IMG/VR virus record: IMGVR_UViG_3300036760_000327
Location: 1-64,000 of that record
DNA length: 64,000 bases
Strand: one strand, 5' to 3'
Origin: a virus
A model generated the notes under the pieces. It was not told the DNA's origin. It did no database searches and worked only from the letters and a program-made list of their open reading frames with translations. Shown piece after piece: positions 7,014 to 54,514 of this stretch. Within the stretch, counting starts at the first letter, position 1, and every line of letters begins with the position of its first letter. Both the position numbers and the translations under genes were made by a program.

Positions 7014-7436
7014 TTAAAATAGCCTGAATTTATTACTTTCGAGATATCTAATTGCATTCATTAATATTTCTGAATCATCTTTCATAAGTCCCAATGCTGT
7101 ATTGTAGTTATTGCACAATAATCCTCTAACTTTTTCATTTGTATGATCATGATCTATACATACTTTATCTCCTGGGGTAAAGATATGGGAACAGATGGCG
7201 CATTTACTTTCTTGTTTTTCTAGTAATATTTTAAATTCTTCTAATGATATTTTATAGTTATATTTTATCTGATATTCTTTTTTGTACTCTTTCCGATGCT
7301 CTTTAACATCAGGTCGTTGAAAATATTTTTTATTATACTCTTTCATATATTCTCTATGATATTCTTTTCGCTGTTTTCTAATAGTGTCTTTGTTCTTTTG
7401 AAAATATTCTTTCATATACTCTTTTTTATCGAACAT
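7014..7436 (-). CDS. Endonuclease VII-like HNH protein, zinc site altered
   Basis: A Lys/Tyr/Glu-rich N-terminal repeat (EYMKEYxQ) is followed by a recombination endonuclease VII-type domain: CAICSH, DKVCIDHDH, VRGLLC. The start is taken at MFDKKEY because the paralog at 16961 starts there and the ribosome site is identical in place; an ATG 18 bases upstream overlaps that site. Oddity: the last zinc pair reads CNNYN instead of CxxCN, so one zinc ligand is lost. It is a lone minus-strand gene among plus-strand genes, under its own copy of the conserved promoter motif. Probably a mobile homing-type nuclease, perhaps inactive. Confidence 0.8.
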   Translation of the reverse strand: MFDKKEYMKEYFQKNKDTIRKQRKEYHREYMKEYNKKYFQRPDVKEHRKEYKKEYQIKYNYKISLEEFKILLEKQESKCAICSHIFTPGDKVCIDHDHTNEKVRGLLCNNYNTALGLMKDDSEILMNAIRYLESNKFRLF

Positions 7437-7452
7437 AATATTATACTTCTCC

Positions 7453-7488
7453 ATATATTAATAGTAAAATTTAGATATTTGTGACAAA
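7453..7488 (-). promoter_or_regulatory. Conserved phage promoter motif, copy C (minus strand)
   Basis: On the minus strand: TTTGTCACAAA, 8 bases, then TTTTACTATTAATATAT, directly upstream of the endonuclease VII-like gene. Spacing and sequence match copies at 16909, 32018 and 55757. The palindromic half may also serve the plus-strand gene at 7528. Confidence 0.65.
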
Positions 7489-8000: not shown

Positions 8001-8855
8001 ATGACAAGAGATGAAATTATCAGAAACAAAGCAAATTTACAAGAAGCAGATTTACGGAAAGTAAATTTACAAGAAGCAAATTTGCAGAGAGCGGATTTAC
8101 AGGGAACAGATTTACAGGGAGCAAATTTACAGGGAACAGATTTACAGGGAGCAAATTTACAGGGAGCAAATTTACAGAGAGCAAATTTACAGAGAGCAAA
8201 TTTACAGAGAGCAGATTTGTGGAGAGCAGATTTGCGGGGAGCAGATTTGCGGGGAGCAGATTTGCGGGGAGCAGATTTGCGGGGAGCAGATTTGCGGGGA
8301 GCAGATTTGCGGGGAGCAGATTTGCGGGGAGCAGATTTACAAGGAACAGATTTACAAGGAACAGATTTACAAGGAACAGATTTACAAGGAACAGATTTAC
8401 AGGGAGCAAATTTACAGGGAGCAAATTTAAAGGGAGCAGATTTGTGGGGAGCAAATCTATATAGAGCAAATTTACAGGGAGCAAAAAATTTACCAGCAAA
8501 ATTTGCCAGCAATCTAAATCTTCTAAAACGGCAAAAAAATTCATTGATAGCTTTTAAATTTCTTAACGGGGATACATCTCCATATCAAAATTTCGCTTAC
8601 AAAATCGGAGAAACATATATTTGCGATGATGGGGATTCAGATGAAAGAATTCTTTGTGGCAAAGGTATCAATCTTGCCCCTCTAGAATGGTGTTTACGAC
8701 AAACAAATAATGATTTATCGAAAACTTATGCTATTTTTGAATTCAATCCAGAGGATATTTTGACAGTACCATATAACTCAGACGGAAAATTTAGGGTTAA
8801 AAGAGCGAAATATATTAGAAATTTAACCAGGCAAGAATTGAAAAATGTAATATGA
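8001..8855 (+). CDS. Pentapeptide-repeat protein with C-terminal domain, 284 aa
   Basis: Strong AAGGAGG ribosome site. Residues about 10-165 are some 30 tandem A(D/N)L(R/Q)(G/R) pentapeptides, which fold as a right-handed quadrilateral beta helix. Residues about 180-284 form a separate domain (GDTSPYQN, CGKGINLAPLEWCL, YAIFEFNPEDI, FRVKRAKYIRNLT) of the type often joined to pentapeptide repeats in phage and bacterial proteins of unknown role. Some pentapeptide proteins mimic DNA and protect gyrase; nothing here shows that activity. The repeat DNA is nearly identical from unit to unit, so copy number may vary. Confidence 0.85.
   Translation: MTRDEIIRNKANLQEADLRKVNLQEANLQRADLQGTDLQGANLQGTDLQGANLQGANLQRANLQRANLQRADLWRADLRGADLRGADLRGADLRGADLRGADLRGADLRGADLQGTDLQGTDLQGTDLQGTDLQGANLQGANLKGADLWGANLYRANLQGAKNLPAKFASNLNLLKRQKNSLIAFKFLNGDTSPYQNFAYKIGETYICDDGDSDERILCGKGINLAPLEWCLRQTNNDLSKTYAIFEFNPEDILTVPYNSDGKFRVKRAKYIRNLTRQELKNVI
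8034..8490 (+). repeat. Tandem 15-bp repeats encoding pentapeptides
   Basis: About 30 near-identical 15-base units; eight consecutive copies between 8222 and 8340 are almost the same. Likely prone to slippage. Opposite-strand frames here are shadows. Confidence 0.85.
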
Positions 8856-8869
8856 TCTAAGGAAATAAT

Positions 8870-10093
8870 ATGAAAAATGCATTGATTATTGATAGTCTAG
8901 GAAAATTTGTTGAGATAAACAATACAACAACCTCAAAAATTGGGTTAATAATTGGTATTGTTAATTATAGAGATGTTTGTGTAAATTTGTTATCTCCAAC
9001 TTATAATCTAGAATATATATATCTTTCACCAAAAAATGAATGTCGAATTTTAAATTCTGACGAAATAAATAAATTATTTAATCCTATTAAAGTTATGAAT
9101 AGAATACCATTTCAAGGTTGTAATAATGGAGCAGATCCAGAAGTTTTTGTGGTTGATAAAGATGATAATGTAATACCAGCATTTACATTTCTTCCTGATA
9201 AGAAATGCGGAAACCCATTCTGGGATGGTTTTCAGGCCGAGTTTACTATTATTCCAACATCTTGTCTCAGCTATATGGTTGATTATATTAGAGACAAATT
9301 GCGCAGTGTACTTCAAAAAGCGCAAGCAAAAGATCCTAATGCTAAATTAACATGGAAAAGCGTTATGGATGTCCCTTGTGAAATTTTACAAAAGACAGAG
9401 CATAAGTATATAGAATTAGGTTGCGCACCAAGTCAAAACATATATGGTATAGAAATAACAAGACCTGATCCTATGGTCCTTCCTTTACGATTTGCAGGTT
9501 GTCATTTACATTTTGGTTTAGACCAAAAGGTAAGGGAAAATAAATTTCTTATCAATAATATAATAAAATATATGGATTCATTATTTGGAATAATTTCTGT
9601 TTCCTTATTACAAGGAATGGAAGATCCTCGCCGGAGATTATTTTATGGGTTGGCTGGGGAACATCGACTTCCCCCACACGGCATAGAATACAGAGTTCCA
9701 AGTTCTGCTATACTTGCTCATCCCGCATTATTTCATTTATGTTTCGATATTATAAGAGCTTCTTTATATTTGGCACAATATGATATAATGTCCTTATTTC
9801 ATATAAAAAATAGAGAAGAAGAGATAATTGATATAATTAATAATTATGATTTATTAGCTGCTAAAAAATATTTAAACAGACATAAAACTATAATTATATT
9901 AATACTTGATAGAATATATTGTGATAGGGGTAAAGAAATATTTGCCTTAATTACAGACGGATTTAGAAATAATGTAGATATATCCAGCATGGAAAAAAAT
10001 TGGATACTTGATTCAGATCAATGGAGTTGCCATTCTGAATCTAAAAATTGTAATGTGTCTAAATTGGAATTGCCGTCCAATTTATTAGAATAG
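8870..10093 (+). CDS. COOH-NH2 ligase (amidoligase), phiEco32-like type 2, paralog 1
   Basis: ATP-dependent amidoligase with a glutamine-synthetase-like fold, expected to join a carboxyl to an amine. Key motifs, shared with the paralogs at 12549 and 15842: GADPE (87-91), the Glu strand QAEF (122-125), CHLHFG (211-216) and EYR with following VP (273-277). These supply the metal and ATP ligands of the family. Residues 1-75 are an extra N-terminal region not found in the shortest paralog. The gene opens a cluster with an ATP-grasp ligase and a class II amidotransferase. Family assignment is from motifs; the substrate is unknown. Confidence 0.8.
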   Translation: MKNALIIDSLGKFVEINNTTTSKIGLIIGIVNYRDVCVNLLSPTYNLEYIYLSPKNECRILNSDEINKLFNPIKVMNRIPFQGCNNGADPEVFVVDKDDNVIPAFTFLPDKKCGNPFWDGFQAEFTIIPTSCLSYMVDYIRDKLRSVLQKAQAKDPNAKLTWKSVMDVPCEILQKTEHKYIELGCAPSQNIYGIEITRPDPMVLPLRFAGCHLHFGLDQKVRENKFLINNIIKYMDSLFGIISVSLLQGMEDPRRRLFYGLAGEHRLPPHGIEYRVPSSAILAHPALFHLCFDIIRASLYLAQYDIMSLFHIKNREEEIIDIINNYDLLAAKKYLNRHKTIIILILDRIYCDRGKEIFALITDGFRNNVDISSMEKNWILDSDQWSCHSESKNCNVSKLELPSNLLE

Positions 10094-10103
10094 AATTCTA
10101 ATA

Positions 10104-10114
10104 TTTATGACAAA
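10104..10114. promoter_or_regulatory. Imperfect TTTATGACAAA palindrome
   Basis: One mismatch from the TTTGTGACAAA core of the promoter motif, followed by CTATTTTTA, and placed 30 bases before the gene at 10146. Possibly a weak regulatory site. Confidence 0.3.
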
Positions 10115-10145
10115 CTATTTTTAAATATTTTAAAAGGAGAATACT

Positions 10146-10403
10146 ATGGCGCAATGGCATGTGTATCAAACTAGAGCAGGTACAATATTTACTATAGGAT
10201 TGTCTGGAAATAGTGATGAAGAAATAAAAATAGTAGCCTATGATCATAATATTCCGCCAACTACTGCAAAATTGGTAGGTATATTCCAGGCTGATTCTCA
10301 GTGTGATTATATAAATAAGATGATTCCAATTTTATTACGGAATTTAAAAGATAATATTGAAACAAAAAAAATTTATAAAAGGATTAAGAAAGAGGGATTA
10401 TAA
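10146..10403 (+). CDS. Hypothetical protein in amidoligase cluster, 85 aa
   Basis: Ribosome site AAAAGGAG. An alpha/beta protein with a basic helical tail (KKIYKRIKKEGL). Stop and next start overlap (TAATG), so it is coupled to the gene at 10403. Function unknown; its location suggests a role with the ATP-grasp enzyme two genes on. Confidence 0.65.
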   Translation: MAQWHVYQTRAGTIFTIGLSGNSDEEIKIVAYDHNIPPTTAKLVGIFQADSQCDYINKMIPILLRNLKDNIETKKIYKRIKKEGL

Positions 10404-10774
10404 TGAAAATACAGATGATTAATCGGAAATATAAATTTCCGTTTAATTTGTATACACCAATTGTTTTTCAAAAAGAGTATAATGGGAAATATATTACAGG
10501 CGATATTATAACTGTTTATATTTTAATTGAAGATGCGCACTATGAGTATCTTCCTTCAAGATGGTATTATTTAATACTTAAGGGCGCAGAAAAATATTTT
10601 ATAATTAGATACCTTTCTACAAGAAGACGCCAACAGAGATGGAAACCTTTATATACAGAAGATGTATTTGCATCTTATATTGATGCTAAAACTTATATGG
10701 ACGACATAATTAATAATTGGAAGGATAATAATATATATAGTTTAATTGACATAATTCATGTAAAGGAAGTATAA
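10403..10774 (+). CDS. Hypothetical protein in amidoligase cluster, 123 aa
   Basis: Coupled to the previous gene. Rich in Tyr and beta strands (ITVYILIEDAHYEYLPSRWYYLILKG), with basic RRRQQRWK in the middle. Not recognised; conserved neighbours could tell whether it belongs to the ligase pathway. Confidence 0.65.
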   Translation: MKIQMINRKYKFPFNLYTPIVFQKEYNGKYITGDIITVYILIEDAHYEYLPSRWYYLILKGAEKYFIIRYLSTRRRQQRWKPLYTEDVFASYIDAKTYMDDIINNWKDNNIYSLIDIIHVKEV

Positions 10775-10789
10775 GAAAAAGGAGATAAA

Positions 10790-11497
10790 ATGAAGATTTG
10801 GATTGATGCAAACAAAAATTTAACCACGTGGAAGGCTATTGCCACAGCTGGAAACTTTTCTTTATATAAAGGAAGAGCAGATCCAGGAGATGTTATTATT
10901 AGATGGGGTGCAAATTACGGGAGATATAATTATCCCGCGGGAGTAATGATATTGAACCCTAAGTTAATTTTAAGTAAAGCTGCTCAGGGTAGAATATTAA
11001 TGGAACATGAAATTCCCATACCAACAATATTTAATACACGAGCGGAGTGGCAACAAGCCGGACGCCCATTAGTAGTTTGTAAACCGTGGCATGGTCAAGG
11101 TGGTACTGGAATGCGATTAACTACTGCCCCAATATTTGGCGGAAAATTTGTTATTCAACAATATCTTGAGAAACAAAAAGAATATAGAGCAATGATGGTG
11201 CATGATATACTGGCTTTCTTTATGGAAAAACATTGTCCAGATAATGGTAATTTTAGATGGAACGAGCATCAAGGAGCTGTCTGGACCGGAGTGCCAGAAA
11301 ATAATAGATTGCGAGCAAAAATTAAGATACTAGGGGCAAGCGCATTAAATGCTTTGGGTTATGATTTTGGAGCCATTGATATTATATTATACAATAATAT
11401 ACTTTATGTTTTAGAGGTTAATTCAAGGCCTGAGTTTGGACCTAGAAATGCAGAAAGATTTGTTAGAGCAATTCAAGAATTTTTAAATAGGAGATAA
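10790..11497 (+). CDS. ATP-grasp ligase (RimK-like), 235 aa
   Basis: A compact ATP-grasp enzyme that would activate a carboxylate as acyl phosphate and couple it to an amine. Visible: the ATP-binding Lys in VVCKPW (K98), a Gly-rich loop HGQGGTG (101-107), and the metal triad in GAIDIIL (D197) and LEVNSRP (E209, N211). It resembles the short ATP-grasp proteins of phiEco32-like phages, which sit with COOH-NH2 ligases and amidotransferases. Good ribosome site AAAAGGAG. Its last codons are part of a 48-bp sequence repeated at 6489. Confidence 0.8.
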   Translation: MKIWIDANKNLTTWKAIATAGNFSLYKGRADPGDVIIRWGANYGRYNYPAGVMILNPKLILSKAAQGRILMEHEIPIPTIFNTRAEWQQAGRPLVVCKPWHGQGGTGMRLTTAPIFGGKFVIQQYLEKQKEYRAMMVHDILAFFMEKHCPDNGNFRWNEHQGAVWTGVPENNRLRAKIKILGASALNALGYDFGAIDIILYNNILYVLEVNSRPEFGPRNAERFVRAIQEFLNRR

Positions 11498-11528
11498 ACA
11501 AATCGTAAAAGATTAATATTTACAAGTA
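11481..11528 (+). repeat. 48-bp direct repeat, copy 2
   Basis: Spans the last codons of the ATP-grasp gene and the following 30 non-coding bases. Nearly identical to 6489-6536. Confidence 0.8.
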
Positions 11529-11571
11529 AACAGAAGAAAAGGAGTTATTAGTATGGAAGTGGAGGATCAAC

Positions 11572-11865
11572 ATGGAACTGGATATTAGTGTTAATAATAT
11601 TTTCTTTTCAAAAAATGTGCCTAAAGAATGGTTTTGTAAAATTATTAGAAAGAACGTGGATATTTTTAATATGACCAGAGTAGAAGTCTGTAATCCACCC
11701 GAGAATATAATAGGGATTGGATTAATATCTTTGAGTGATGACGATATGGAATCTATTATTAATGAAGTAGAAAAGAGTGAAAGCTATTGGATTATTGGAG
11801 AAGAAAAGGTTTCTCTTACTGGTACTAGTATTATGATAGATGCTCTAATTATTGAGCAAATGTAG
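11572..11865 (+). CDS. Hypothetical protein, 97 aa
   Basis: Start at the ATG after GGAGGATCAAC. An acidic alpha/beta protein (ENIIGIGLISLSDDDMESIINEVEKSE). Not recognised. Lies between the ATP-grasp gene and the second amidoligase, so a role in that pathway is possible. Confidence 0.65.
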   Translation: MELDISVNNIFFSKNVPKEWFCKIIRKNVDIFNMTRVEVCNPPENIIGIGLISLSDDDMESIINEVEKSESYWIIGEEKVSLTGTSIMIDALIIEQM

Positions 11866-11874
11866 AGGATAGTT

Positions 11875-12093
11875 ATGCTTATTGAATTGATAAAAAATAA
11901 AACAACAATAAAAGTAATTAGACTTTTAAGCGGATGTACAATATTATCAAATTGTATAGTGTGTAATTCTCCTATAAAAGGGCATGATAACTGGAGAGCT
12001 TTGTGCAATTCTTGCGGGGAGTCATTATCACCAGAGAAAAGAATTTATTGGTTCAAACTAGCTTGTGACTATTATCCCCAACTTATAATATAG
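11875..12093 (+). CDS. Small zinc-ribbon protein, 72 aa
   Basis: Two Cys pairs, CIVCNSPIKG (about 27-30) and CNSCGES (about 44-47), form a likely zinc ribbon. Ribosome site is AGAGGA. Function unknown. Confidence 0.65.
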   Translation: MLIELIKNKTTIKVIRLLSGCTILSNCIVCNSPIKGHDNWRALCNSCGESLSPEKRIYWFKLACDYYPQLII

Positions 12094-12111
12094 AACAGCA
12101 GGAGAAATAAT

Positions 12112-12297
12112 GTGCGTGTAGAATATGTGGTTGAAAAAATAGAAAAAGGTAAAACTATACATATTGGAGCTGAAAATATACGCGATGCTGAACAAATATT
12201 GTGCTTAATCTCTAAACAACACAGAGGATCTGTTTATCCCTTATACTCGAAGGACATTTTAGTAAATGAAACCAAGGAGGATCAACAATGCGATTAG
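12112..12297 (+). CDS. Hypothetical protein, 61 aa, GTG start
   Basis: GTG start 7 bases after CAGGAGA. The strand-helix pattern (ENIRDAEQILCLISK) recalls the small DpnD/PcfM-like proteins earlier in the window. Overlaps the next gene by 10 bases. Confidence 0.6.
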   Translation: MRVEYVVEKIEKGKTIHIGAENIRDAEQILCLISKQHRGSVYPLYSKDILVNETKEDQQCD

Positions 12298-12506
12298 ATA
12301 ATACAATAGTAGATGCTATTGCCCAAAAGTGTGTTGATAATATTATTGAAAAATTTGGCATAAAAAACTTGGCCACTATGCCTTTTGATGCGTTGAATGC
12401 AGAGATATATGAAATGATTGAAGATATTGAAGATCAAGTTGATAAGATAGTGGTATCAAAAATTATAGATGCTTCTGTTACTTCGATAGATGATCTCTGG
12501 AAATAA
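12288..12506 (+). CDS. Acidic helical protein, 72 aa
   Basis: Strong AAGGAGG ribosome site inside the end of the previous gene. All-helical and acidic (EIYEMIEDIEDQVDKI). Not recognised. Confidence 0.6.
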   Translation: MRLDNTIVDAIAQKCVDNIIEKFGIKNLATMPFDALNAEIYEMIEDIEDQVDKIVVSKIIDASVTSIDDLWK

Positions 12507-12548
12507 AATGAATATTTTAATAATATAAATTTTGTAAAGGGGAAAAAT

Positions 12549-14189
12549 ATGGATTTGCTTGTTGAACTTCCGGACACCGGGTACACGTACCAGTCATTAA
12601 ATCAGACAGAACTGTTACAGTTGTTTAATAAAACTAAATTTAAATTAATTATGGCTCGTATAATAATAGATGCTACAAATAATTATGGAGAACTAACGAA
12701 AGAAGAAATTTTAGATCCTACTATAAGGAAAACCAAAAGACCTCCATTACAAGAAAATACCATATATTGTTATTGTAAACTTAAACAACATAAAATTGAT
12801 TGCGCTATACTACAAAAACTTATTCAGTGTTCTCAACAATCAAACGAAATTCAAGTAAATCTTCCAGAACTGCTCCAATGGGAAAAGGATTATGTTACTA
12901 TTGATCTTCCAACACATAAAGATTTAATATTTAAACATAACGACGAGGAAATTGGATGGTACAATAAAGAAAATAATATATTATGGATAAGTGATATAGG
13001 ACATTTTTCAGAAAGGGTTGTTAAGAATTTTAAATTAATTTTATCCAATATTATAGAATTTAATAGAACTGGCAGTATTCCCGTACTGCCATATCTACTT
13101 ATTGGTTGTGATCTCGAGTTTGAACTATTTGATAAAAATGGAAACTTTATTCCAGCAAATGCGTATTTGCACGATATTGAAAATAGAAATCATGAACTAG
13201 GGCGCGAAGTTGGGCTTGATGGACATCCTCAAACAGGAGAAATTAGACCTGCTCCAGCGAATAATCCAATTAAATTGGCTGGCAATATTAGAAGAACTGT
13301 TAAAAAACTAATCCATATATTAACATTGCACAATCCTGATATACAGATATTTTGTGGCGGGGGTTTGAAAGAAAGTTTAGGCGGGCATATTCATTTTAAC
13401 ACAGAGGGTTTTGTTATTAATAACAATAACCTTAAATATATTTTATATAATTTAATAGGGAAATATATTAAAGCAGGTATGAATACGCGTAGTGTAAGAA
13501 TTGACCGAAACGAATTTATGAGTAAAGACGCGCCAGATGGTTTTAGAACAACCGAGTCTCATATTGGGTGGGAATGGAGATGTCCTCCATCATTTATGCT
13601 AAATGAAATAATATGTAAGTCTATCTTATGTACTACTTGGTGTGTTATTAAAGAATATTATGGTTATGGATTTGCAGAAACAGAATATACACGAGTTCAC
13701 ATAGAGCAAGATAGCATTAACGTATTAACAACATTACATTTTTATCCTTATTATAAAAAATGGATTGATCAATTTATTGATATGTTCATTTTAAATAAAA
13801 CTGCAATGGAAGGAAAAGATATTAAAAAAGAATGGAACATTGTATCATACCAATATAATATCACAATATTTTCTGAACTTCCCTGGGTAGAAGAATATAT
13901 TAATTCTTGTTGGGTTGATATATCTAGAGTAATAAAAATTGGTATATATAAAAATAGGAATTTGATGTTTTCGGTTTCTACAATTAAATCCTTATCTAAG
14001 AAGTTATCCTCTGAGATAGAAGAATTTGCAATTAATCATTTAGTTTCATCATCAATTGCGCTTCACACGGATTCAACATTAGATATAATAATTTATATTC
14101 CGTGGGATGCTCCGCCTGATACAAAGATGGCTTCGGATAAACTTAAAGTTATATTAAAGAAAATAATTGTAGAGATTAATAAAAGTTAA
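12549..14189 (+). CDS. COOH-NH2 ligase (amidoligase), paralog 2, 546 aa
   Basis: The largest of the three amidoligases. The catalytic half carries GCDLE (186-190), EIRP (231-234), GGHIHF (278-283) and EWR with following CPP (342-347). About 180 residues precede it and about 190 follow, so it has extra domains of unknown role. AAAGGGG lies before the ATG. It sits between small genes and the class II amidotransferase; an in-trans ammonia or amino-acid supply from that enzyme is plausible. The acceptor is unknown. Confidence 0.8.
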   Translation: MDLLVELPDTGYTYQSLNQTELLQLFNKTKFKLIMARIIIDATNNYGELTKEEILDPTIRKTKRPPLQENTIYCYCKLKQHKIDCAILQKLIQCSQQSNEIQVNLPELLQWEKDYVTIDLPTHKDLIFKHNDEEIGWYNKENNILWISDIGHFSERVVKNFKLILSNIIEFNRTGSIPVLPYLLIGCDLEFELFDKNGNFIPANAYLHDIENRNHELGREVGLDGHPQTGEIRPAPANNPIKLAGNIRRTVKKLIHILTLHNPDIQIFCGGGLKESLGGHIHFNTEGFVINNNNLKYILYNLIGKYIKAGMNTRSVRIDRNEFMSKDAPDGFRTTESHIGWEWRCPPSFMLNEIICKSILCTTWCVIKEYYGYGFAETEYTRVHIEQDSINVLTTLHFYPYYKKWIDQFIDMFILNKTAMEGKDIKKEWNIVSYQYNITIFSELPWVEEYINSCWVDISRVIKIGIYKNRNLMFSVSTIKSLSKKLSSEIEEFAINHLVSSSIALHTDSTLDIIIYIPWDAPPDTKMASDKLKVILKKIIVEINKS

Positions 14190-14236
14190 TAGGATATTTT
14201 GTATGGTAGGCTAACCTATCGGAAAGAGAGGACAAT

Positions 14237-15496
14237 TTGTGTGGCATTCTTGGTTTTATTACAGATAGGGCATCTAAAGAAAATATTAAATATTTTAAGA
14301 AAATTTTATATATGTCCGAAGCTCGAGGAAGAGAAGCAACAGGTATATTTTATACAAAAGACGATGCTTATGTGATTGAAAAACAACCGATCATCTCGTC
14401 AAAGTTTATTCAGGATATATTTCCAGTGCATGCTAATAATCTGGGACGAGCTAGAATTGCTCTTGGGCATACCAGATCTCCTACACAAGGAAGCCCCAAA
14501 GATAACAGCAATAATCATCCGCTAGAAAGTAAAAATTGGATCTTGATACATAATGGTGGAGTAACTTTAATGCCAAGATTAAATGATTACAAATATAAAG
14601 GAGAGGTTGATTCAGAAGTCTTATTAAGTTATATAGAAAAATATGGACTAAAAGAAGGGTTGCCTTATGTTGAAAGAGGATCGGCTGCTGTGGCATTAAT
14701 TCAGAAAAATGATTTAAATTCTGTGTATTTATGGAGAGAAACTAATCCAATTATACTGGCGTGTGATACAAAATCTAATACTATTTTCTTTGCGTCGCAA
14801 AAAGAATTTTTAGAAAGCGGACTAGCAAATAGGTTTTTATTTTTTACATCGTTTCAATTAAGAGAATTGCCTGAAAATCTTTTAATTAAAATAACCGCAA
14901 ATCCTTTTACAATTACTCCTATGGGATATATTGAAGTAATGAAATATGATTATACTAGATATGTATCTCCTATAATAGAGAAATATAAACCAAAAAGTAT
15001 ACCACTAGTATTTAATCAAAGTAATTTTCGATGGGAATTACCATCACAACCTTTATCAAAACCACCAGCTATAATAACAACAGATGGTCAGAAGGAAAAG
15101 TGTACTTTTCTTAATACTGATGGAAAGTGCTTTAAAGGATATACAACTCCTTGTCCTGAAAATAAATATGATTGTGATTATTTTGGAGCAGATCTTAATA
15201 CAGATAAATTACATAGTGGAGAACCTGAACATAATATAAATAAATATTATATAGATGGTATATCGAGAGATTTTAAAAATTGGTTTAAATTACCCAAACC
15301 AAACAAAGGACATATTTCAATGGATGGTGTATTATTTAAAAAATGGGACGATGTTAAGAAAAAACATTATATTATGCTAGTCGAGGATGCAATAAAAGAA
15401 AAGTTAATAGACGAGACATTACTTATAGAAGATGAAGATAGTTTAGATCTTCCATCTAAAATGATCCCGTATTATACAAATATGGAAATGGAGTAA
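14237..15496 (+). CDS. Class II glutamine amidotransferase, 419 aa
   Basis: Ntn-type glutaminase domain of the GlmS/PurF kind: Cys2 directly after the initiator (MCGILGF), GHTR (77-80), NNHP (92-95), HNGG (105-108) and DSE. The start must be the TTG at 14237, since Cys2 has to become the N-terminus; GAGAGG lies 6 bases upstream. Residues 1-210 hydrolyse glutamine to release ammonia. The C-terminal 200 residues are not a GlmS or PurF synthase half; they hold a Cys cluster (CTFLNTDGKCFKGYTTPC) that may bind metal. It likely feeds ammonia to, or trims glutamine for, the neighbouring amidoligases. Confidence 0.85.
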   Translation: MCGILGFITDRASKENIKYFKKILYMSEARGREATGIFYTKDDAYVIEKQPIISSKFIQDIFPVHANNLGRARIALGHTRSPTQGSPKDNSNNHPLESKNWILIHNGGVTLMPRLNDYKYKGEVDSEVLLSYIEKYGLKEGLPYVERGSAAVALIQKNDLNSVYLWRETNPIILACDTKSNTIFFASQKEFLESGLANRFLFFTSFQLRELPENLLIKITANPFTITPMGYIEVMKYDYTRYVSPIIEKYKPKSIPLVFNQSNFRWELPSQPLSKPPAIITTDGQKEKCTFLNTDGKCFKGYTTPCPENKYDCDYFGADLNTDKLHSGEPEHNINKYYIDGISRDFKNWFKLPKPNKGHISMDGVLFKKWDDVKKKHYIMLVEDAIKEKLIDETLLIEDEDSLDLPSKMIPYYTNMEME

Positions 15497-15503
15497 AGAT
15501 AAA

Positions 15504-15815
15504 ATGCAAGCAACTGTATATTGTAGAGTAAATTATATGGTATTTTTAGATAGTAAAGATGAAATGATAGGCTATCAATTAGATAAGTCTACTTTAAAGA
15601 AAATGAAATTTTTAGATATTAAATTTCCTGTTGAACCGCCTGAGGGTACTAAAAAAGCAGTGGTAATAAAGGAAGTTCGATCTATGATAGTATACGAGAA
15701 AAAAAATATTGCTGATGAGATGGCTAGAGTTGTTACATACCAAATTCAAGATGGACCATATTATGTCCAGAAATTAATTAGGGATAATTTATCCCAGAAT
15801 TTATTGCTTGCTTAA
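15504..15815 (+). CDS. Hypothetical protein in amidoligase cluster, 103 aa
   Basis: Lies between the amidotransferase and the third amidoligase with short gaps, so likely in one transcript. Alpha/beta, no motif recognised (MQATVYCRVNYMVFLDSKDE...). Confidence 0.65.
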   Translation: MQATVYCRVNYMVFLDSKDEMIGYQLDKSTLKKMKFLDIKFPVEPPEGTKKAVVIKEVRSMIVYEKKNIADEMARVVTYQIQDGPYYVQKLIRDNLSQNLLLA

Positions 15816-15841
15816 ATAAATTTTTTGTTGCGGAGGTATAT

Positions 15842-16642
15842 ATGAAACAGGTAAAAATTGGTTGTGATCCAGAATTTATGATTTTAGCAAGTGATGGTAA
15901 AATTGTACCGTCTCTGACAATATGTGATGATGAAAATTTAAAAAATCATTTTGGAAGAGAGGTAGGCCAGGGTGGATGGCTATTTGAATTGCGTCCTGAT
16001 CCGTCTACCAATATATTTGCATTATTGGCAAATATACGTAAAATTATGAAAATTCATATACGGAAATTTCCTTATTTAAAAAAGTGTATATTTATTGGTG
16101 GCCATGCTGCTGAAGATCATTTTGCTATTGGCGGACATATTCATATTAGTACAGATGAAATGTATTCAGATGATTTATTGGAGTCTAATTTTAAACGTTT
16201 TATTAATAAAATAATATACAGTGGTTTTATGCATATAATTAATGATAAGGAGGGCCAGTATGTTCGTCAAACAATAGGATATGGTAAAGCGAGAGATTTT
16301 AGATGTTGCAAATATGACAGTTCTTCTTTAGAATATCGAACTCCACCATCGTGGCTTGTTAGTCCGACACTAGCTTTTATTTTCTTAACATTAGCAAAGA
16401 TTTGTGGATTGCTGTATATTAATAAAAAATATTTTAATATTAATGATGAGATTTATAATTTGTCGCATGATACACATAAAGGGATGTTGCTATTAAAAAG
16501 ATTTTTTACTGTGGTGAAAATTTGTGACGGATTGATGGAAGAAGAGGATGTGGTTAAATGTATAGAAATGCTAGAAAATTTACCAAATAAGCGGATAAAT
16601 TTAAACTGGAATCGTGATTTTAAAATAGCATGGCAATTATAA
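15842..16642 (+). CDS. COOH-NH2 ligase (amidoligase), paralog 3, 266 aa
   Basis: Minimal form of the family with the catalytic domain only: GCDPE (7-11), ELRP (49-52), GGHIHI (97-102) and EYR with following TPP (164-169). The absence of N- and C-terminal extensions marks which parts of the two longer paralogs are accessory. Ribosome site is GCGGAGG. Three paralogs in one locus suggest successive coupling steps or different substrates. Confidence 0.8.
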   Translation: MKQVKIGCDPEFMILASDGKIVPSLTICDDENLKNHFGREVGQGGWLFELRPDPSTNIFALLANIRKIMKIHIRKFPYLKKCIFIGGHAAEDHFAIGGHIHISTDEMYSDDLLESNFKRFINKIIYSGFMHIINDKEGQYVRQTIGYGKARDFRCCKYDSSSLEYRTPPSWLVSPTLAFIFLTLAKICGLLYINKKYFNINDEIYNLSHDTHKGMLLLKRFFTVVKICDGLMEEEDVVKCIEMLENLPNKRINLNWNRDFKIAWQL

Positions 16643-16960: not shown

Positions 16961-17551
16961 ATGTTCGATAAAAAAGAGTATATGAAAGAATATTATCAGC
17001 GACCTGATGTCAAGAAGCGTCAAAAAGAATATTATCAAAAAAATAAAAAATATATAAAAGAATACCAGCAAAAAAATAAAGATATTATTAAAGAATACCA
17101 AAAGGAGTATTATCAGCGTCCTTATGTCAAAGAATATTATCAACAGCCTGATATTAAAAAGCGTAAGAAAGAATATGATAAAGAATATCGTCAGCGGTCT
17201 GATATTAAAAAGCGCCAAAAAGAATATAATAAAGAATATAATCAACGACCTAGTATTAAAAAGCGTAAGAAAAAGTATATGAAAAAATATAATATAAAGC
17301 ATAACTATGGAATATTATTAGAAGAATTCAAATTCTATTTAGAAAAGCAAGAAAATAAATGTGCTATCTGCTCACATACCTTTACTCCAGAAGATAAAAT
17401 ATGTATAGATCATGATCATGCAACTGGAAAAGTTAGAGGATTATTGTGCTTTAAATGTAATGTATTACTTGGAATGGCAGTAGATAATTCAAAAACATTA
17501 ATGAATGCAATTAAATATCTCAATGAATACAATCAGATAGCCGAACTTTAA
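16961..17551 (+). CDS. Endonuclease VII-like HNH protein, 196 aa
   Basis: Paralog of the gene at 7014 with an intact zinc site: CAICSH, KICIDHDH, VRGLLCFKCN. That is the recombination endonuclease VII pattern (two Cys pairs around a DH-D-H catalytic strand). The N-terminal half (residues 1-110) is a Lys/Tyr/Gln-rich repeat of EYYQRPDIKKR type, longer than in the paralog, probably a DNA-contacting arm. Its own promoter motif and the matching upstream region in both copies suggest that promoter and gene moved together. Confidence 0.85.
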   Translation: MFDKKEYMKEYYQRPDVKKRQKEYYQKNKKYIKEYQQKNKDIIKEYQKEYYQRPYVKEYYQQPDIKKRKKEYDKEYRQRSDIKKRQKEYNKEYNQRPSIKKRKKKYMKKYNIKHNYGILLEEFKFYLEKQENKCAICSHTFTPEDKICIDHDHATGKVRGLLCFKCNVLLGMAVDNSKTLMNAIKYLNEYNQIAEL

Positions 17552-44584: not shown

Positions 44585-45715
44585 TTATTTGTTTTCTTGA
44601 ATTTTTTCACATATAAACGATATATTATCTTCGGACAATTCTACATGCAATGGAAGACTAATACACCTTTCAAAAAATTTAATGGCCTCCTGGCAACCAT
44701 TATCGGTTTCGTATGTACGATACATTTTATAAAGATGATTCAGGCGATAATGAACGCCGCATTGTATCCCTTGTTCAGACAAATATTTCATTAATTTATC
44801 CCTGTTATTTACAAGAATTACAAATAAATGATTAGCAGATATTCTATCTGGAAATATTTTTAATAATTCAATCTGTTCTGTATTAGCTAATAATTTTCTA
44901 TATTTATCTACTAGCATTTGTCTATAGATTCTATCTTCTTCATAATGTTGCAACTGCCCTAATCCAATAGCTGCTTGTATATCATTCATATGATTTTTCC
45001 AACCCATTGATACTATATCATAGTCCCATGAATATTTTTCATTATTTGTTCGTTCGGATGTATTTTTATTTATGCCAAACCATCGCAATAATCTGGCCAT
45101 TTTATCAATTTCTGGATCATAGGTAGTTAACAAACCACCATCTCCGATAGCAAGTGGTTTAACAGAATGGAGACTAAAAGTGCAGAATCTAGAATGCAAA
45201 CATCCTATTTTCTCGTTTTGATACTCAGCGCCGAAAGCGTGAGAGCTATCCTCAATTACATCTAAATGATATTTAGTAGCTATATCATATATTGCATTCA
45301 TATCAACTGGCATACCGCCAAAATGGACAACCATAATTGCTTTTGCTCTAGAATTAATAAATGGATTGGTCATTAATCTTTCAATAGATTTTGGATCTAT
45401 GTTGCCGGTATCTGGTTCAATATCTGCAAAAACAGGATAGTAACCAGCTTGTAAAATACAATGATTTGTGGCAATAAAAGTCAACGGGGTCGTAATGACA
45501 TAAGAGCCTTTGGGAGCTTTAAGACAAGCTAAAGCTATTTGTATGGCCGCCGTGCCAGAATTAAGTGCAATTACATATGGAGTATTCAAATATTGGGATA
45601 CTGCCTGTTCAAACTCAGCAACACGAGGGCCAAGGCCGGTCCAGCCGCTTTTTAATACTTCTGTAACATTATCAATGCTTTTCTGGTAAACGTGGTGGCG
45701 GAATAAAGTTATCAT
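44585..45715 (-). CDS. DegT/DnrJ/EryC1-family sugar aminotransferase, 376 aa
   Basis: PLP enzyme that turns a nucleotide keto-sugar into an amino-sugar. Landmarks: LKSGWTGLGPRVAEFE, ALNSGTAAIQIALA, the cofactor strand EDSSHAFGAEY, and the PLP lysine in HSVKPLAIGDGG; tail HYRLNHLY. Start at the ATG after GGGGGA; a longer frame to 45748 overlaps the upstream gene. Together with the GNAT at 46817 it could make an N-acylated amino-sugar. Confidence 0.85.
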   Translation of the reverse strand: MITLFRHHVYQKSIDNVTEVLKSGWTGLGPRVAEFEQAVSQYLNTPYVIALNSGTAAIQIALACLKAPKGSYVITTPLTFIATNHCILQAGYYPVFADIEPDTGNIDPKSIERLMTNPFINSRAKAIMVVHFGGMPVDMNAIYDIATKYHLDVIEDSSHAFGAEYQNEKIGCLHSRFCTFSLHSVKPLAIGDGGLLTTYDPEIDKMARLLRWFGINKNTSERTNNEKYSWDYDIVSMGWKNHMNDIQAAIGLGQLQHYEEDRIYRQMLVDKYRKLLANTEQIELLKIFPDRISANHLFVILVNNRDKLMKYLSEQGIQCGVHYRLNHLYKMYRTYETDNGCQEAIKFFERCISLPLHVELSEDNISFICEKIQENK

Positions 45716-45716
45716 T

Positions 45717-45944
45717 TTATTCTTTTTCCCCCAGATATTCATAGCCAAACGGACGAATTTCCCACATGTCCATTCCCAATGATTCTAAAGCACAATGGGC
45801 ACATAATACGCAATCTTTTCCCATTATATCAATTATCTTTTTCCAGTACTTATTACTAAGCTGATAATCATAGTGCATACGGGCATGGCATTTTTTACAT
45901 ACCATACCATTATGTAAGATTGTCTCTAGTATTTTTTTTCTCAT
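45717..45944 (-). CDS. Zinc protein, 75 aa
   Basis: CKKCHARMHYD (about 16-26) and CVLCAHCALES (about 45-55) provide two Cys pairs with His. Stops just before the aminotransferase ATG. Unknown; may be regulatory or structural. Confidence 0.6.
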   Translation of the reverse strand: MRKKILETILHNGMVCKKCHARMHYDYQLSNKYWKKIIDIMGKDCVLCAHCALESLGMDMWEIRPFGYEYLGEKE

Positions 45945-45951
45945 CTTTCCT

Positions 45952-46089
45952 TTATTTTTCTCGCATAGCCCATTGTATAAAACATTCTTTACTACAAAAA
46001 TAATATTTTTTATTATTTTTTATTACAACATATACCGGATATTTAATTCCTTGAGATAATTTTTCTAATCCACAATAAGCACATTTCAT
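45952..46089 (-). CDS. Small zinc-finger protein (TRASH/MYM-like), 45 aa
   Basis: MKCAYCG at the start and FCSKECF near the end form a CxxC...CxxxC site like TRASH or MYM fingers. Ribosome site GGATAAAAAT overlaps the upstream stop. Too short to give a function. Confidence 0.55.
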   Translation of the reverse strand: MKCAYCGLEKLSQGIKYPVYVVIKNNKKYYFCSKECFIQWAMREK

Positions 46090-46093
46090 ATTT

Positions 46094-46270
46094 TTATCCT
46101 ATCCTACTTGGTTTTTCCACGTCTTCTAAACTATCAATCATTAGTTGAAGTAATGAAATTGATTTTTGATAATTAGGATAATTTTTAATTAAAGCCTGAA
46201 GTTGCTGGTCCAGATTTAATTTTATCATTTCCATTTTCATTTTAGAAGTCCAACTTCGTCTTAATTTCAT
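46094..46270 (-). CDS. Small helical protein, 58 aa
   Basis: Basic N-terminus (MKLRRSWTSK) and Leu/Gln-rich helices. Its stop lies in the ribosome site of the next gene. Not recognised. Confidence 0.5.
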   Translation of the reverse strand: MKLRRSWTSKMKMEMIKLNLDQQLQALIKNYPNYQKSISLLQLMIDSLEDVEKPSRIG

Positions 46271-46284
46271 GCTGTTTTACCTAG

Positions 46285-46815
46285 TTAGCACCTAGTAAAT
46301 CCACAAGAATAACATTTTGCACAACCTTCTTCCATAATTAAACCAGAACCACACTCTGGACAAGGCTCGGTAATAAATTTTGGGGTCTTTTTGACCGCAG
46401 TTTTTACTTCAGCAATAACTTTATCAAAATTGATCTTATGCACTTCTGGTAATTTTTCTTCTTTCTTTTCAATTATTGTTATAGATTTCTCTTGTTTTTT
46501 TCTGCTTTTAGCCAAACATTGAGCTACAGCATCAGCACAACTTAATGTTTTTGTATTTCCAAAACCATTAGATTGATGGCAACCTATACCTGCCAACTGT
46601 TTGATTATTGTTTCCATACTTGTTCCAGCTTTTAAAGCTAAACTAATAAGTCTTCCTAGAGCTTCAGATTGGCTGGCGGCACATCCTCCCGCCTTTCCTA
46701 AACGAATAAACACCTCCCACGGTTTTCCTTCAGCATCTTCATTTATAGTAATATATAAATTTCCACACCCCGTACTTATACGACGTGTATGTCCCCTAAG
46801 CACTTCTTCTCTCAT
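46285..46815 (-). CDS. Stand-alone TSCPD-domain protein (NrdJ C-terminal-like), 176 aa
   Basis: Residues 1-95 match the TSCPD domain found at the C-terminus of B12-dependent ribonucleotide reductases: RGHTRRISTGCGNLYITIN, EVFIRLGKAGGCAASQSEALGRLISLAL and a Cys-containing QLAGIGCHQ. A Lys-rich linker and a zinc ribbon (CPECGS, CAKCYSCG) end the protein. No reductase catalytic gene is visible in the window. It may act with a reductase elsewhere or be regulatory. Start at MREEVL after AAGGA. Confidence 0.8.
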   Translation of the reverse strand: MREEVLRGHTRRISTGCGNLYITINEDAEGKPWEVFIRLGKAGGCAASQSEALGRLISLALKAGTSMETIIKQLAGIGCHQSNGFGNTKTLSCADAVAQCLAKSRKKQEKSITIIEKKEEKLPEVHKINFDKVIAEVKTAVKKTPKFITEPCPECGSGLIMEEGCAKCYSCGFTRC

Positions 46816-46816
46816 T

Positions 46817-47374
46817 TTACATGTCCTTGATATTTGTGGCCTGATTTTCATATGAATCTGATAGATCATCATAGCTGTAAATAACAGATGGTTTTTTTGA
46901 ATCAAAATTATGATTAATGGCCTCTAATAATTGAATAGGTTTTGTAACGGATTTAAATCCTGCTCTTGCATAGATAGCAATAGCATCTATATTGTCCATA
47001 TGGACTTCTACTCTAACTTTGTACAGTTTCATTTCTTCAAATGCAATACGGAGAATTCTTTTAACCATTTCTTCAGCATATCCATGTTGCCGAAATTCTT
47101 CTAATAATAATACTCTTCCTAATTTAGCCGTTCGACTAGTGATGTCAGTAGCATAAAGAGCGATAGTCCCGATCTTTTCACCGGATTTAAGCATTACAAT
47201 AAACATATTATCCGTACCAATATCCCTATATTTTTGATACCAAGCTTTTTGTTGTTCTTTGGTTATCTCATTTGCATCAAAAAAATGATCTCTATATTTA
47301 TTACGAGTTTCTCTTAACCATTCAATATCATTCTCATTTACGGGCTTAAAAACTAATCGTTCACTTTTTATCAT
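46817..47374 (-). CDS. GNAT N-acetyltransferase, 185 aa
   Basis: GNAT fold: VFKPVNENDIEWLRETRN (strand 1, helix 1), KIGTIALYAT, the acetyl-CoA loop region LEEFRQHGYAEEMVKR (Q/RxxGxA form, about 91-106), and NIDAIAIYARAGFK. Resembles acetyltransferases of amino-sugar biosynthesis such as PseH. With the DegT aminotransferase it suggests an N-acetylated amino-sugar. Overlaps the glycosyltransferase before it by 14 bases. Confidence 0.8.
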   Translation of the reverse strand: MIKSERLVFKPVNENDIEWLRETRNKYRDHFFDANEITKEQQKAWYQKYRDIGTDNMFIVMLKSGEKIGTIALYATDITSRTAKLGRVLLLEEFRQHGYAEEMVKRILRIAFEEMKLYKVRVEVHMDNIDAIAIYARAGFKSVTKPIQLLEAINHNFDSKKPSVIYSYDDLSDSYENQATNIKDM

Positions 47375-48245
47375 TTAATATTTCCTCCCATTTATGACCA
47401 ATTGTATCTATTGAATATTTATCCAGTACATCTTCTCTTGCCTGTTGTCCAATTTTAATTCGCAAATCTCTATTTTTTAATATCTCAAGATACATTGTCC
47501 ATTCGTTCTTTGAATTATTTAAACAAACAAATCCATTTTTGCCTTGACGAATGATCTCTGTATAAGCCGGAATTGGAGAAGTTATTACAGGCAACCCTAA
47601 TATCATTGACTGGGTTAAACGATTATTCCCCTTCGCAAGTTCAAATGGCGGCAGTTCACCGAGAAACGGTATTACAATAATATCTGAATCAATTAAATCT
47701 GACCATATAGTATCTAATCTCCATTGTTTTGTTGCTTCTTTACAGGCACTAATGGTAATATATTTAAAGCCCAGAGATTCTATTAATGGCCGTATGGTTT
47801 CGGCTTGGGGAAAATGAAGAAGAGTACCAAACCAAGAAATTATGAGATTATCTTCCCTGTGTTCTTTTTTATATAAATTTCTTGGGGTTTCATACGCGTC
47901 ATTTATCGTGTATAATTTAGCTTTTGTATAAGATTGAATCCATTCTCGGATGTACTCAGAGCCACAGACAACTTTATCAGCAATCTGGGCCATTGGAATA
48001 CCTTCAAAGTATAGATCATCCAGTATATAAATTACTTCTTTCCCCTTTTCTTGGCATTCTTTAGCCCTATTAATTTCAGTAAATATTTTTTGGAATATAA
48101 TAATATCATATAAATCAATATTATAGGGGGATATAAGTATATCCGAAATGATACCGTTTTGATTCATCCAGTTAGAAACATTTATACCCATAATACGACT
48201 GCTAGGAGTATTTTTATCACCAATTAAAATCCATCCTATATACAT
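47361..48245 (-). CDS. Glycosyltransferase (GT4-like), 294 aa
   Basis: Two Rossmann-like halves. The C-terminal part has FELAKGNNRLTQSMILGLPVITSPIPAYTEII (donor-binding E region) and QAREDVLDKYSIDTIGHKWEEIL, as in GT-B family 4 enzymes. The first half is short. Near-identical wording occurs in the two larger glycosyltransferases at 52332 and 54515 (SPxxxY, QARED), so the three are related. Confidence 0.75.
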   Translation of the reverse strand: MYIGWILIGDKNTPSSRIMGINVSNWMNQNGIISDILISPYNIDLYDIIIFQKIFTEINRAKECQEKGKEVIYILDDLYFEGIPMAQIADKVVCGSEYIREWIQSYTKAKLYTINDAYETPRNLYKKEHREDNLIISWFGTLLHFPQAETIRPLIESLGFKYITISACKEATKQWRLDTIWSDLIDSDIIVIPFLGELPPFELAKGNNRLTQSMILGLPVITSPIPAYTEIIRQGKNGFVCLNNSKNEWTMYLEILKNRDLRIKIGQQAREDVLDKYSIDTIGHKWEEILNDKK

Positions 48246-48766
48246 AAATTTACCAAATATAAAGTATGATTTCCTTTACTTTTAAGAGTATCTATTCCAA
48301 TAATTTCATTGGAACAAGATTCTAATTCAAATAATGCATCGCTACATATAAAATATCTAGTATGTTCTTTAAGCCAACAAATCAAATTTTTTCTCCATAC
48401 TAAATTTTCATCTGGTAACATATCCCATCGTCGCCACGTTTCTAGCATTAAAGTTAAATCAAAATTATTATTATAAGTATTAATAAAATCTTGAAATGTA
48501 GTATGATAAAATTTAATATTATTATATTTCGTCCATTCATCATATGTCCATATATCCACACCTTGACAAATAGTATTTGGAAATTTTTTGCTCAAACCGA
48601 AAAGAACATAACCCTTGCCACAGCACAAATCAAGTATATTATGAGGACGTATATTTCTATTTATAAGTGCTTCAAAGATTTTATATCCTCGTCCAATTCC
48701 TTCTTCTTCATTATTATTCTCGTCATTTCCCCATACTCTTTTAATTTCCATATCGCCTTCTGTCAA
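48236..48766 (-). CDS. Class I SAM methyltransferase, 176 aa
   Basis: Motif I ILDLCCGKGYVLFGLSKKFP (about 44-63), then GVDIW (acidic ribose-binding strand) and DLTLMLETWRRW. Start is the TTG with GGAGG 7 bases upstream, overlapping the previous stop (TTGA); an ATG five codons later has a poorer site. Lies among sugar genes, so a sugar or small-molecule target is likely. Confidence 0.7.
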   Translation of the reverse strand: MTEGDMEIKRVWGNDENNNEEEGIGRGYKIFEALINRNIRPHNILDLCCGKGYVLFGLSKKFPNTICQGVDIWTYDEWTKYNNIKFYHTTFQDFINTYNNNFDLTLMLETWRRWDMLPDENLVWRKNLICWLKEHTRYFICSDALFELESCSNEIIGIDTLKSKGNHTLYLVNLCI

Positions 48767-48930
48767 TTTAATTCCTCCAATAATATATTACAAGGTTGCC
48801 CACATAAAGAACATATATAATAACAAGTGCCTATTTTTTGTTTCTTTACATCTTCTCCAATAAAATCAGGCATATCTGAAAATACTATTAATACTTCGGC
48901 TTGGCAACATGTACTTAGATTGGTATTCAT
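48763..48930 (-). CDS. Small zinc protein, 55 aa
   Basis: CCQAE near the start and CYYICSLCGQPC near the end form a likely metal site. The stop overlaps the next start. Short Cys proteins of this type accompany many genes of this phage. Confidence 0.55.
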   Translation of the reverse strand: MNTNLSTCCQAEVLIVFSDMPDFIGEDVKKQKIGTCYYICSLCGQPCNILLEELN

Positions 48931-49421
48931 TTTACTGCCCTTAAAATAAAGACTATATTATAAATTATATTTAAATAATGTTTTTTAGCAAATTCTAATT
49001 CTTTACCGGATAATTTTTGTCCCTCTGGTGTCAGGGTTTCAATTAATTGGACTAGATCAAATTTTCCAGTGTAAGTATAATGTGGAACTTGTTTTTGTCG
49101 GCAATCAAGATACTCATAGGTTCTGTGAGTCCAATACTTTTTATGTGTTGGATCTCTAAAGGCTGATTCGCAACCCCAATACGGCACTTGTATTTCAACC
49201 AAAGCTCCAGGCATACAAACGCGATAAATTTCTCCCATAATCCTTAAGGGGTTATCCACATGTTCAAAAAAGTAAATAGCTCTTACTGCTGCTACACTAT
49301 TGTCCTCAAAGGGTAAATCTTCATTTTCTAAATCACATATAATCTCAGCTGGTGGAAGTTTATCTACCCCAATCCATCCTGGTAAACATTGATTTCCACA
49401 ACCAATATCTAATTTAATCAT
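48927..49421 (-). CDS. Class I SAM methyltransferase, 164 aa
   Basis: Motif I LDIGCGNQCLPGWIGVD (4-20), LPFEDNSVAAVRAIYFFEHVDNP (motif for strand 4), EIYRVCMPGALVEIQVPYW. Short methyltransferase 11-type fold, as found in glycan clusters. Overlaps both neighbours. Confidence 0.8.
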   Translation of the reverse strand: MIKLDIGCGNQCLPGWIGVDKLPPAEIICDLENEDLPFEDNSVAAVRAIYFFEHVDNPLRIMGEIYRVCMPGALVEIQVPYWGCESAFRDPTHKKYWTHRTYEYLDCRQKQVPHYTYTGKFDLVQLIETLTPEGQKLSGKELEFAKKHYLNIIYNIVFILRAVK

Positions 49422-49548
49422 AAACGCACCATTTACATCCTATAGGATTATGTTTAGTAATAATATTTAAACGTATTAACACATGTTCAAAAAAGTCGCA
49501 AAAGTCTTTACCCTGGGATAATAAAGCATTAATTTCTTTTTCCGTCAC
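49414..49548 (-). CDS. Small protein, 44 aa, GTG start
   Basis: The GTG overlaps the radical SAM stop (GTGA), and the end overlaps the next gene, so it fits the coupled operon. Product MTEKEINALLSQGKDFCDFF... ends in CKWC, a possible metal site. Unknown. Confidence 0.45.
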   Translation of the reverse strand: MTEKEINALLSQGKDFCDFFEHVLIRLNIITKHNPIGCKWCVYD

Positions 49549-50921: not shown

Positions 50922-50923
50922 AA

Positions 50924-51793
50924 TTAATCCTCAAATGTTCCTGTTATATTTACTAGTTTACCTTGTTCACAGAAATTCCAATTTTCATTGCTGCCATTAA
51001 TATAAGACTTGCTTGCTGTATTCCATCCGCCAAATCTGGATTCAAGCATTATATTATTATCTTGAGTATAATAACTGTAATAAGCAGGTGATTTTATTAC
51101 ATTTTTATTATACAATGCCTTAGCTATCCATTTTCTAGGATGAATATTTTCTTCTAATTGATATTCATTTTGCTTGATAACACAATCCGGTAAATATATG
51201 TTTTTCAATGCTAACATGCTAATTCTAAGCGGCATATCAAGATCATCACATTGGAGATCTTCATTAAAAAATTGTAATTGATCTAACATCTCGCCCTTAA
51301 AGGCCCATACACACCCGACAACCCCCGCTCTATCCGGCGATATGTATATCCAGAAATGTGGTGCCCGTTCTTCAATTTTTATTTCCTTGTAGAAAAATTC
51401 TTTACGACCAGGAGAATCTACAAAAAATGTAGGTCGAATAGCTAAAGCTGATCCAATGTCAGGATAGGACAAAGCTTTTAATATTAAATTTAACCAATTA
51501 TCTGATTCAATAACTGAATCATCGTCCCATTTTATATAAATTTGTGAGGGTTGGCGTAATGACATTAAGAAATTATGTCCAAAGACTATACCCGTATTAA
51601 AAGAATTTTGTCCAATATAATCAAATTCTTTTCTATATTTATGGATAACTTCTTTAACTTCTGGAGTTGCATTTTGATCTAAAACAGCCCATTGAAATTT
51701 AGATCTGTCTGTATGTAATAATAAGGCTTTAATACATTTTTCAGTAGCTTGAGGACGACCAAGAACGCACATTCCAATCAAAGGCTTTTTCAT
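50924..51793 (-). CDS. Glycosyltransferase family 2-like, 289 aa
   Basis: GT-A fold: IGMCVLGRPQATEKCIKALLLHT, then the metal-binding IKWDDDSVI (about 88-96), a VGCVWAFKGEML acceptor region and EDLQCDDLDMPLRI. About 290 residues, usual for this family. Overlaps the upstream methyltransferase by 4 bases and ends 2 bases before the radical SAM gene. Confidence 0.8.
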   Translation of the reverse strand: MKKPLIGMCVLGRPQATEKCIKALLLHTDRSKFQWAVLDQNATPEVKEVIHKYRKEFDYIGQNSFNTGIVFGHNFLMSLRQPSQIYIKWDDDSVIESDNWLNLILKALSYPDIGSALAIRPTFFVDSPGRKEFFYKEIKIEERAPHFWIYISPDRAGVVGCVWAFKGEMLDQLQFFNEDLQCDDLDMPLRISMLALKNIYLPDCVIKQNEYQLEENIHPRKWIAKALYNKNVIKSPAYYSYYTQDNNIMLESRFGGWNTASKSYINGSNENWNFCEQGKLVNITGTFED

Positions 51794-54503: not shown

Positions 54504-54514
54504 CTTATCTCCAG

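Follow-up and report, generated by a model that had tools for sequence, protein, structure and literature searches.

What might a tailed phage make with three ligases of one family, encoded side by side with an ATP-grasp ligase and a glutaminase? The question is raised by a gene cluster at positions 8870-16642 of a 64,000-nucleotide stretch of viral DNA (the window), which covers positions 1-64,000 of the 106,486-bp IMG/VR record IMGVR_UViG_3300036760_000327; positions of the cassette are given in window numbering. The cluster is real: it represents a conserved version, with three ligases, of the phage amidoligase cassette already known, and the evidence for it lies far beyond chance. We propose that it probably encodes a phage pathway in which several amide bonds are made in sequence at the expense of ATP.

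Five genes form the cassette

The five open reading frames (ORFs) of the cassette are open at the following coordinates, each with a plausible ribosome-binding site (lengths in amino acids, aa).

8870-10093, + strand: lig1, COOH-NH2 ligase (clade A), 407 aa; PF14395 27.9 bits; phrog_3815 9.5e-29
10790-11497, + strand: ATP-grasp amide ligase, RimK-like, 235 aa; ATP-grasp_3 (PF02655) 29.9, RimK (PF08443) 28.3
12549-14189, + strand: lig2, COOH-NH2 ligase, 546 aa; PF14395 52.4 bits
14237-15496, + strand: class II glutamine amidotransferase (GAT-II), 419 aa; TTG start; GATase_6 51.4 bits, 1.4e-13
15842-16642, + strand: lig3, compact COOH-NH2 ligase, 266 aa; PF14395 83.9 bits

An earlier note, made from the sequence alone, had already assigned the five genes to these enzyme types, and profile searches bear out each of the assignments. 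All three ligases exceed the curated PF14395 cut-off of 25 bits, and the complete record holds exactly three PF14395 matches, all of them within this cluster. Both Pfam matches of the ATP-grasp protein are likewise above cut-off. Assignments in PHROGs agree with Pfam for lig1 (as 'COOH.NH2 ligase'), lig3, the ATP-grasp protein (phrog_2599, 6e-15) and GAT-II (phrog_4736, 9e-28).

The active-site residues of both partner enzymes can be read from the sequence. In the ATP-grasp protein these are Lys98, a glycine-rich loop, DFGAID and LEVN; its matches in the PDB are weak (3vpb and S6-glutamate ligases). GAT-II starts at the TTG at 14237 that had been proposed on account of Cys2, which follows directly after Met, and continues with GHTR, HNGG and then Asp. 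Its glutaminase domain comprises residues ~1-195, and the C-terminal region holds a cluster of four cysteines.

The record belongs to a tailed phage and has its terminase, portal and tail genes in the - strand half. The + strand half carries SNF2-like helicase, primase-helicase, DNA polymerase, UvsX-like recombinase and SbcC-like genes, and all cassette genes share this strand with the primase-helicase and DNA polymerase. No close relatives were found among 50,697 deposited phage genomes, the top terminase match reaching 29%. Promoter-like matches were no commoner in the sequence than in shuffled sequence.

The ligases share motifs and a predicted glutamine-synthetase-like fold

The motifs that were thought to unite the three ligases hold up in a wider comparison: GxDxE, E..P, HxH and ExR are invariant columns in an alignment of lig1, lig2 and lig3 with classical phage ligases, and the DxE, HxH and ExR residues are retained in lig2 and lig3 when compared with 55 sequences. 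The ligase domain occupies residues 87-340 of lig1, flanked by N- and C-terminal extensions, and residues ~183-431 of lig2, where an N-terminal region of ~180 aa and a C-terminal region of ~115 aa are without assignment.

The predicted structures of lig3 and of the lig2 core have the glutamine-synthetase/gamma-glutamylcysteine-ligase fold, in agreement with the fold that had been anticipated. The lig3 model (predicted local distance difference test, pLDDT, 86.7; predicted template modelling score, pTM, 0.90) has Foldseek matches in the PDB to the bifunctional glutathione synthetase 3ln7, YbdK and glutamine synthetases (E 1.7e-7 to 8e-7), with gamma-glutamylmethylamide synthetase (GmaS) also among them. 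The lig2 model is good in the ligase domain only, and this domain matches 1tt4/YbdK, gamma-glutamylcysteine ligases, glutamine synthetase and PafA (core E 1.5e-5). Judging by its sequence, lig1 is a member of the same glutamine-synthetase-like superfamily. The window ligases thus have the predicted fold and the metal-site motifs in common with glutamine synthetase, gamma-glutamylcysteine ligase, YbdK and PafA, at an identity of 9-18%. When solved structures were searched by sequence, lig3, the ligase alignment and GAT-II all returned nothing useful, and no ligase relative was detectable in the PDB in this way.

The cassette differs from the classical phage set

Phage amidoligase cassettes are widespread. 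Among deposited phage records, tblastn matches number 306 for lig1, 277 for GAT-II and 174 for the ATP-grasp protein, and an alignment search of IMG/VR found at least 547 stretches that encode a lig1 relative. In annotated neighbourhoods, the recurrent classical set comprises one PF14395 ligase, one Amidoligase_2 (PF12224), a class II amidotransferase and an ATP-grasp protein, often joined by a gamma-glutamyl cyclotransferase (GGCT) and a class I amidotransferase. This set is seen in LUZ24/tf/UFV-P2-like, phiEco32-like, Proteus P59-like and Rhizobium phages, in Zobellviridae (PA11, TC6, CVT22, CW02) and in crAss-like phages (cr108_1, phi14:2), which substantiates the link to phiEco32-like cassettes drawn in the earlier note. 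For UFV-P2 the same domains have been listed (PMC3890496).

With the classical cassette the window shares a PF14395 ligase orthologous to lig1, the ATP-grasp protein, the class II amidotransferase and the neighbourhood of replication genes. However, each classical phage checked has a single PF14395 ligase, accompanied by PF12224, whereas the window has three and lacks both PF12224 and GGCT. The Pfam profile of PF12224 had no match in the 106-kb record, although it found none in the control genomes either; a locally built hidden Markov model of the PF12224 type, which matches most classical loci, also found none in the window. The idea that lig2 is itself a diverged Amidoligase_2 found no support, since the hhalign probability of lig2/lig3 is 0.2 against the PF12224 type and 97.5 against the lig1 type.

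Three-ligase cassettes recur in uncultivated phages

The nine best loci with a lig1 relative (34-43% identity; of the at least 547) all encode a second large PF14395 ligase. In eight of the nine, this ligase is ~500 aa long and directly precedes GAT-II and the ATP-grasp gene. Searches of whole records found three PF14395 ORFs in 13 other IMG/VR records (G001, G008, G009, G019-G023, G025, G026, G028, G030, G035), counting G030, in which one of the three is under the cut-off (E 2e-5). A further three-ligase record, G024, retains an Amidoligase_2-type gene. The usual gene order in relatives is A, B, GAT-II, ATP-grasp, C, where A, B and C denote the three ligases. Three-ligase cassettes are found in, for example, L186, L187, L189, L190, L193, L194, L201 and L206; the set of A, B, GAT-II and ATP-grasp recurs in other IMG/VR contigs, in many of them with C. 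An Amidoligase_2-type gene is absent in 26 of the 27 fetched loci with B or C ligases and present in 64 of the 75 others, both being counts of loci rather than of independent genomes, as several loci come from one record.

The triplication is therefore recurrent among uncultivated phages, in place of Amidoligase_2. The earlier view of it as unusual stands against cultivated phages and falls among uncultivated ones. A tblastn search that used a single B ligase and a single C ligase as queries gave no match in the 50,697 deposited phages, where a diverged member could be missed since only one sequence of each was used. Neither lig2 nor lig3, taken alone as query, had a match in INPHARED or IMG/VR, and the searchable papers yielded no description of the three-ligase variant.

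In common with the three-ligase cassettes of uncultivated phages, the window has three PF14395 ligases, a ligase in the B position directly before GAT-II, an ATP-grasp gene and no PF12224. It differs in that its ATP-grasp gene is placed not behind GAT-II but between lig1 and lig2, that lig2 and lig3 are highly diverged (~20-34% identity to any relative), and that it lacks GGCT and has different small genes. In related cassettes, no relatives were detectable for the small genes that separate the window ligases, and the proposed membership of these genes in the pathway is thus unsupported. The amidotransferases of three-ligase phages carry a C-terminal, zinc-ribbon-like CxxC...CxxC tail (L187:10384-11382, L189:10639-11679, L185:5279-6292 and others), whereas the four cysteines of the window GAT-II have another spacing. 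A role of this tail as a LysW-like amino carrier was considered, but the tails are without a LysW-like acidic end.

Some further genes stand out in the related cassettes. The third ligase gene often has a sigma-factor-like gene as its immediate upstream neighbour (L187:13438-13977, L190:12651-13184, L194:14015-14533 and relatives), and a gene for a Cys/His-rich protein is found upstream of the second ligase in three-ligase phages. The ~190-aa proteins encoded near B and C, of which the one beside C is sigma-factor-like and the one beside B is Cys/His-rich, were compared with the N-terminal region of lig2 and of Bacillota proteins, and a correspondence to either found no support (hhalign probability <4). 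In a viral record of 452 kb, two ligases of the lig1 type lie in tandem (L025:8479-10029, 10156-11655).

Descent of the three ligases

In a tree of 47 ligase domains, lig1 groups with A and the classical ligases (support 100/100), and it is 39.7% identical to the ligase of L024. We thus regard lig1, on its sequence, as the orthologue of the phrog_3815 ligase of classical phages. On the other side of the tree (support 100/100), lig2 and lig3 are joined with the B, C and Bacillota ligases, and each of these latter three groups forms a supported clade (95/98 for Bacillota). The window therefore does hold a ligase triplet, as had been claimed, but its members are not simple copies of each other: lig1 falls in the classical clade and lig2 and lig3 in a separate superclade.

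Within this superclade, lig2 forms the longest branch of the whole tree (3.32). In the free tree, lig2 does not fall inside clade B, nor lig3 inside clade C; in approximately unbiased (AU) tests, neither joining lig2 to clade B (p 0.35) nor joining lig3 to clade C (p 0.41) was rejected. Position favours lig2 as the counterpart of B and lig3 as that of C, because lig2 directly precedes GAT-II, as ligases of clade B do, and lig3 is compact and comes last.

Bacillota proteins join an ATP-grasp domain to the ligase

The top BLAST matches of lig3, and weakly those of lig2, are PF14395 proteins of Bacillota (Syntrophomonas, Cohnella, Paenibacillus, Thermoactinomycetaceae). A genome scan with a 12-sequence alignment as query found 74 genomic loci, all from Bacillota where phylum or genus is named. 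Their products are mostly 450-560 aa long, with PF14395 scoring up to 344 bits after an N-terminal domain, and this domain is an approximately full-length hhalign match to the phage ATP-grasp family (probability 99.7, E 2.6e-25). The ligase domain is common to these proteins and the window; in Bacillota it is fused to ATP-grasp, whereas in the window ATP-grasp and ligases are separate. The Bacillota proteins also form their own clade, and nearly all stretches examined have no GAT-II/ligase cluster nearby. That bacteria carry the two as one protein supports the view that the separate phage proteins act jointly (a Rosetta-stone link).

A proposed pathway and its alternatives

Enzymes of the GAT-II family release ammonia from glutamine, and ATP-grasp and glutamine-synthetase-like ligases produce acyl phosphates, which amines then attack. 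That the enzyme set is kept together suggests that several amide bonds are made in sequence, and the gene set supports the multi-step, amide-forming pathway put forward earlier. Building on the observed gene content, residues, conservation and Bacillota fusion and on the predicted folds, we infer catalytic activity, step order and division of labour as follows. The pathway would run in the cytosol, from the strand of early and replication genes. GAT-II would free ammonia from glutamine. The ATP-grasp protein and the three glutamine-synthetase-like ligases would each activate a carboxylate as an acyl phosphate with ATP, and the activated carboxylate would be joined to an amine or to ammonia. 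Given their divergence, the three ligases probably differ from one another in donor or acceptor. The end product would be a short conjugate of the isopeptide or gamma-glutamyl type, probably amidated.

The likeliest single target may be a peptide or precursor of the host cell envelope. This is a tentative guess, in line with what the literature has suggested for phiEco32. With reference to Iyer et al. 2009, both PMC10580990 and PMC11318856 mention cell-wall modification against superinfection as a suggested role. It is also possible, though less likely than not, that the three glutamine-synthetase-like ligases, the ATP-grasp protein and the zinc-ribbon-bearing glutaminase build a novel amide-linked conjugate by a phage-specific pathway, and that this conjugate remodels the infected host. 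Should the phage indeed make a conjugate, this would be a new way of taking over the host or of controlling superinfection. The lineage in which two extra PF14395 ligases replace Amidoligase_2, together with the Bacillota fusion, offers a well-delimited set of enzymes, and a natural point of comparison, in the search for the product.

Several points weigh against a sequential pathway in which all members take part. In the free tree, lig2 and lig3 lack a supported place, because they are long branches. Lig2 deviates at several near-invariant positions of the 55-sequence comparison and could be impaired, so its activity is less certain. GGCT (PF06094) has no match in the record and was found in 9 of the 14 control genomes and in many sister cassettes; in classical cassettes it is frequent, not universal. 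For none of the cassette members did a substrate, a product or a phenotype come to light, and in the searchable literature we found no paper that reports an experimental product of phage amidoligase cassettes.

The ligases might instead tag proteins, by attaching a peptide or amino acids to a protein of the host or of the phage. There are precedents in RimK, which acts on ribosomal protein S6, and in PafA with Pup; the window ATP-grasp protein is RimK-like, and PafA is among the structural matches of lig2. Phage R2K ATP-grasp ligases have moreover been proposed to modify host proteins (PMC4431377, PMC7824862). We nevertheless consider tagging unlikely: a glutaminase and three ligases exceed what it needs, our searches found no Pup-like or conserved small substrate protein, and the small genes of the window are not conserved in relatives.

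Lig2 and lig3 might also be drifting copies or non-catalytic partners, leaving only lig1, the ATP-grasp protein and GAT-II active. The extreme branch of lig2 would fit such decay, as would the YG..D.R stretch, which is missing from lig2 as aligned. However, both reading frames are intact, the DxE, HxH and ExR residues persist in both proteins and the three-ligase arrangement recurs in the 13 other records, which makes this quite improbable. Least probable of all is hypermodification, in which amide ligases would decorate a modified nucleotide or DNA base before or after replication: cassettes in many phages do adjoin primase-helicase and polymerase, but a search limited, among base-modification families, to genes of the thymidylate synthase/hydroxymethylase type found none in the record (which is possibly incomplete), and the DNA-modification genes seen there are ordinary N6/N4 methylases.

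Flanks of the cassette and other loci of the record

Lig1 is directly preceded by a gene for a pentapeptide-repeat protein (8001-8855, + strand; 284 aa; PF00805 194 bits), and long antisense ORFs at these positions mirror the pentapeptide repeat. The cassette and this gene are bracketed by two related Endonuclease_7 genes at 7014-7454 (- strand) and 16961-17551 (+ strand), the DNA of which forms an inverted repeat (78% over 320 bp, 88% over 104 bp). A third, more distant Endonuclease_7 copy lies in the same record (L021:15931-16458). The cassette may have been moved or inverted via these genes.

At 44585-55570 (- strand), a cluster of the glycan type encodes a DegT sugar aminotransferase (342 bits), a GNAT acetyltransferase, several glycosyltransferases, a B12-binding radical SAM protein and a protein with a weak methyltransferase match; it is possibly a pathway for a virion or host-surface glycan. 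A second radical SAM protein (PF04055, phrog_1802) is encoded among - strand genes at 78.9-80.2 kb of the record (L020:15946-17196, - strand).

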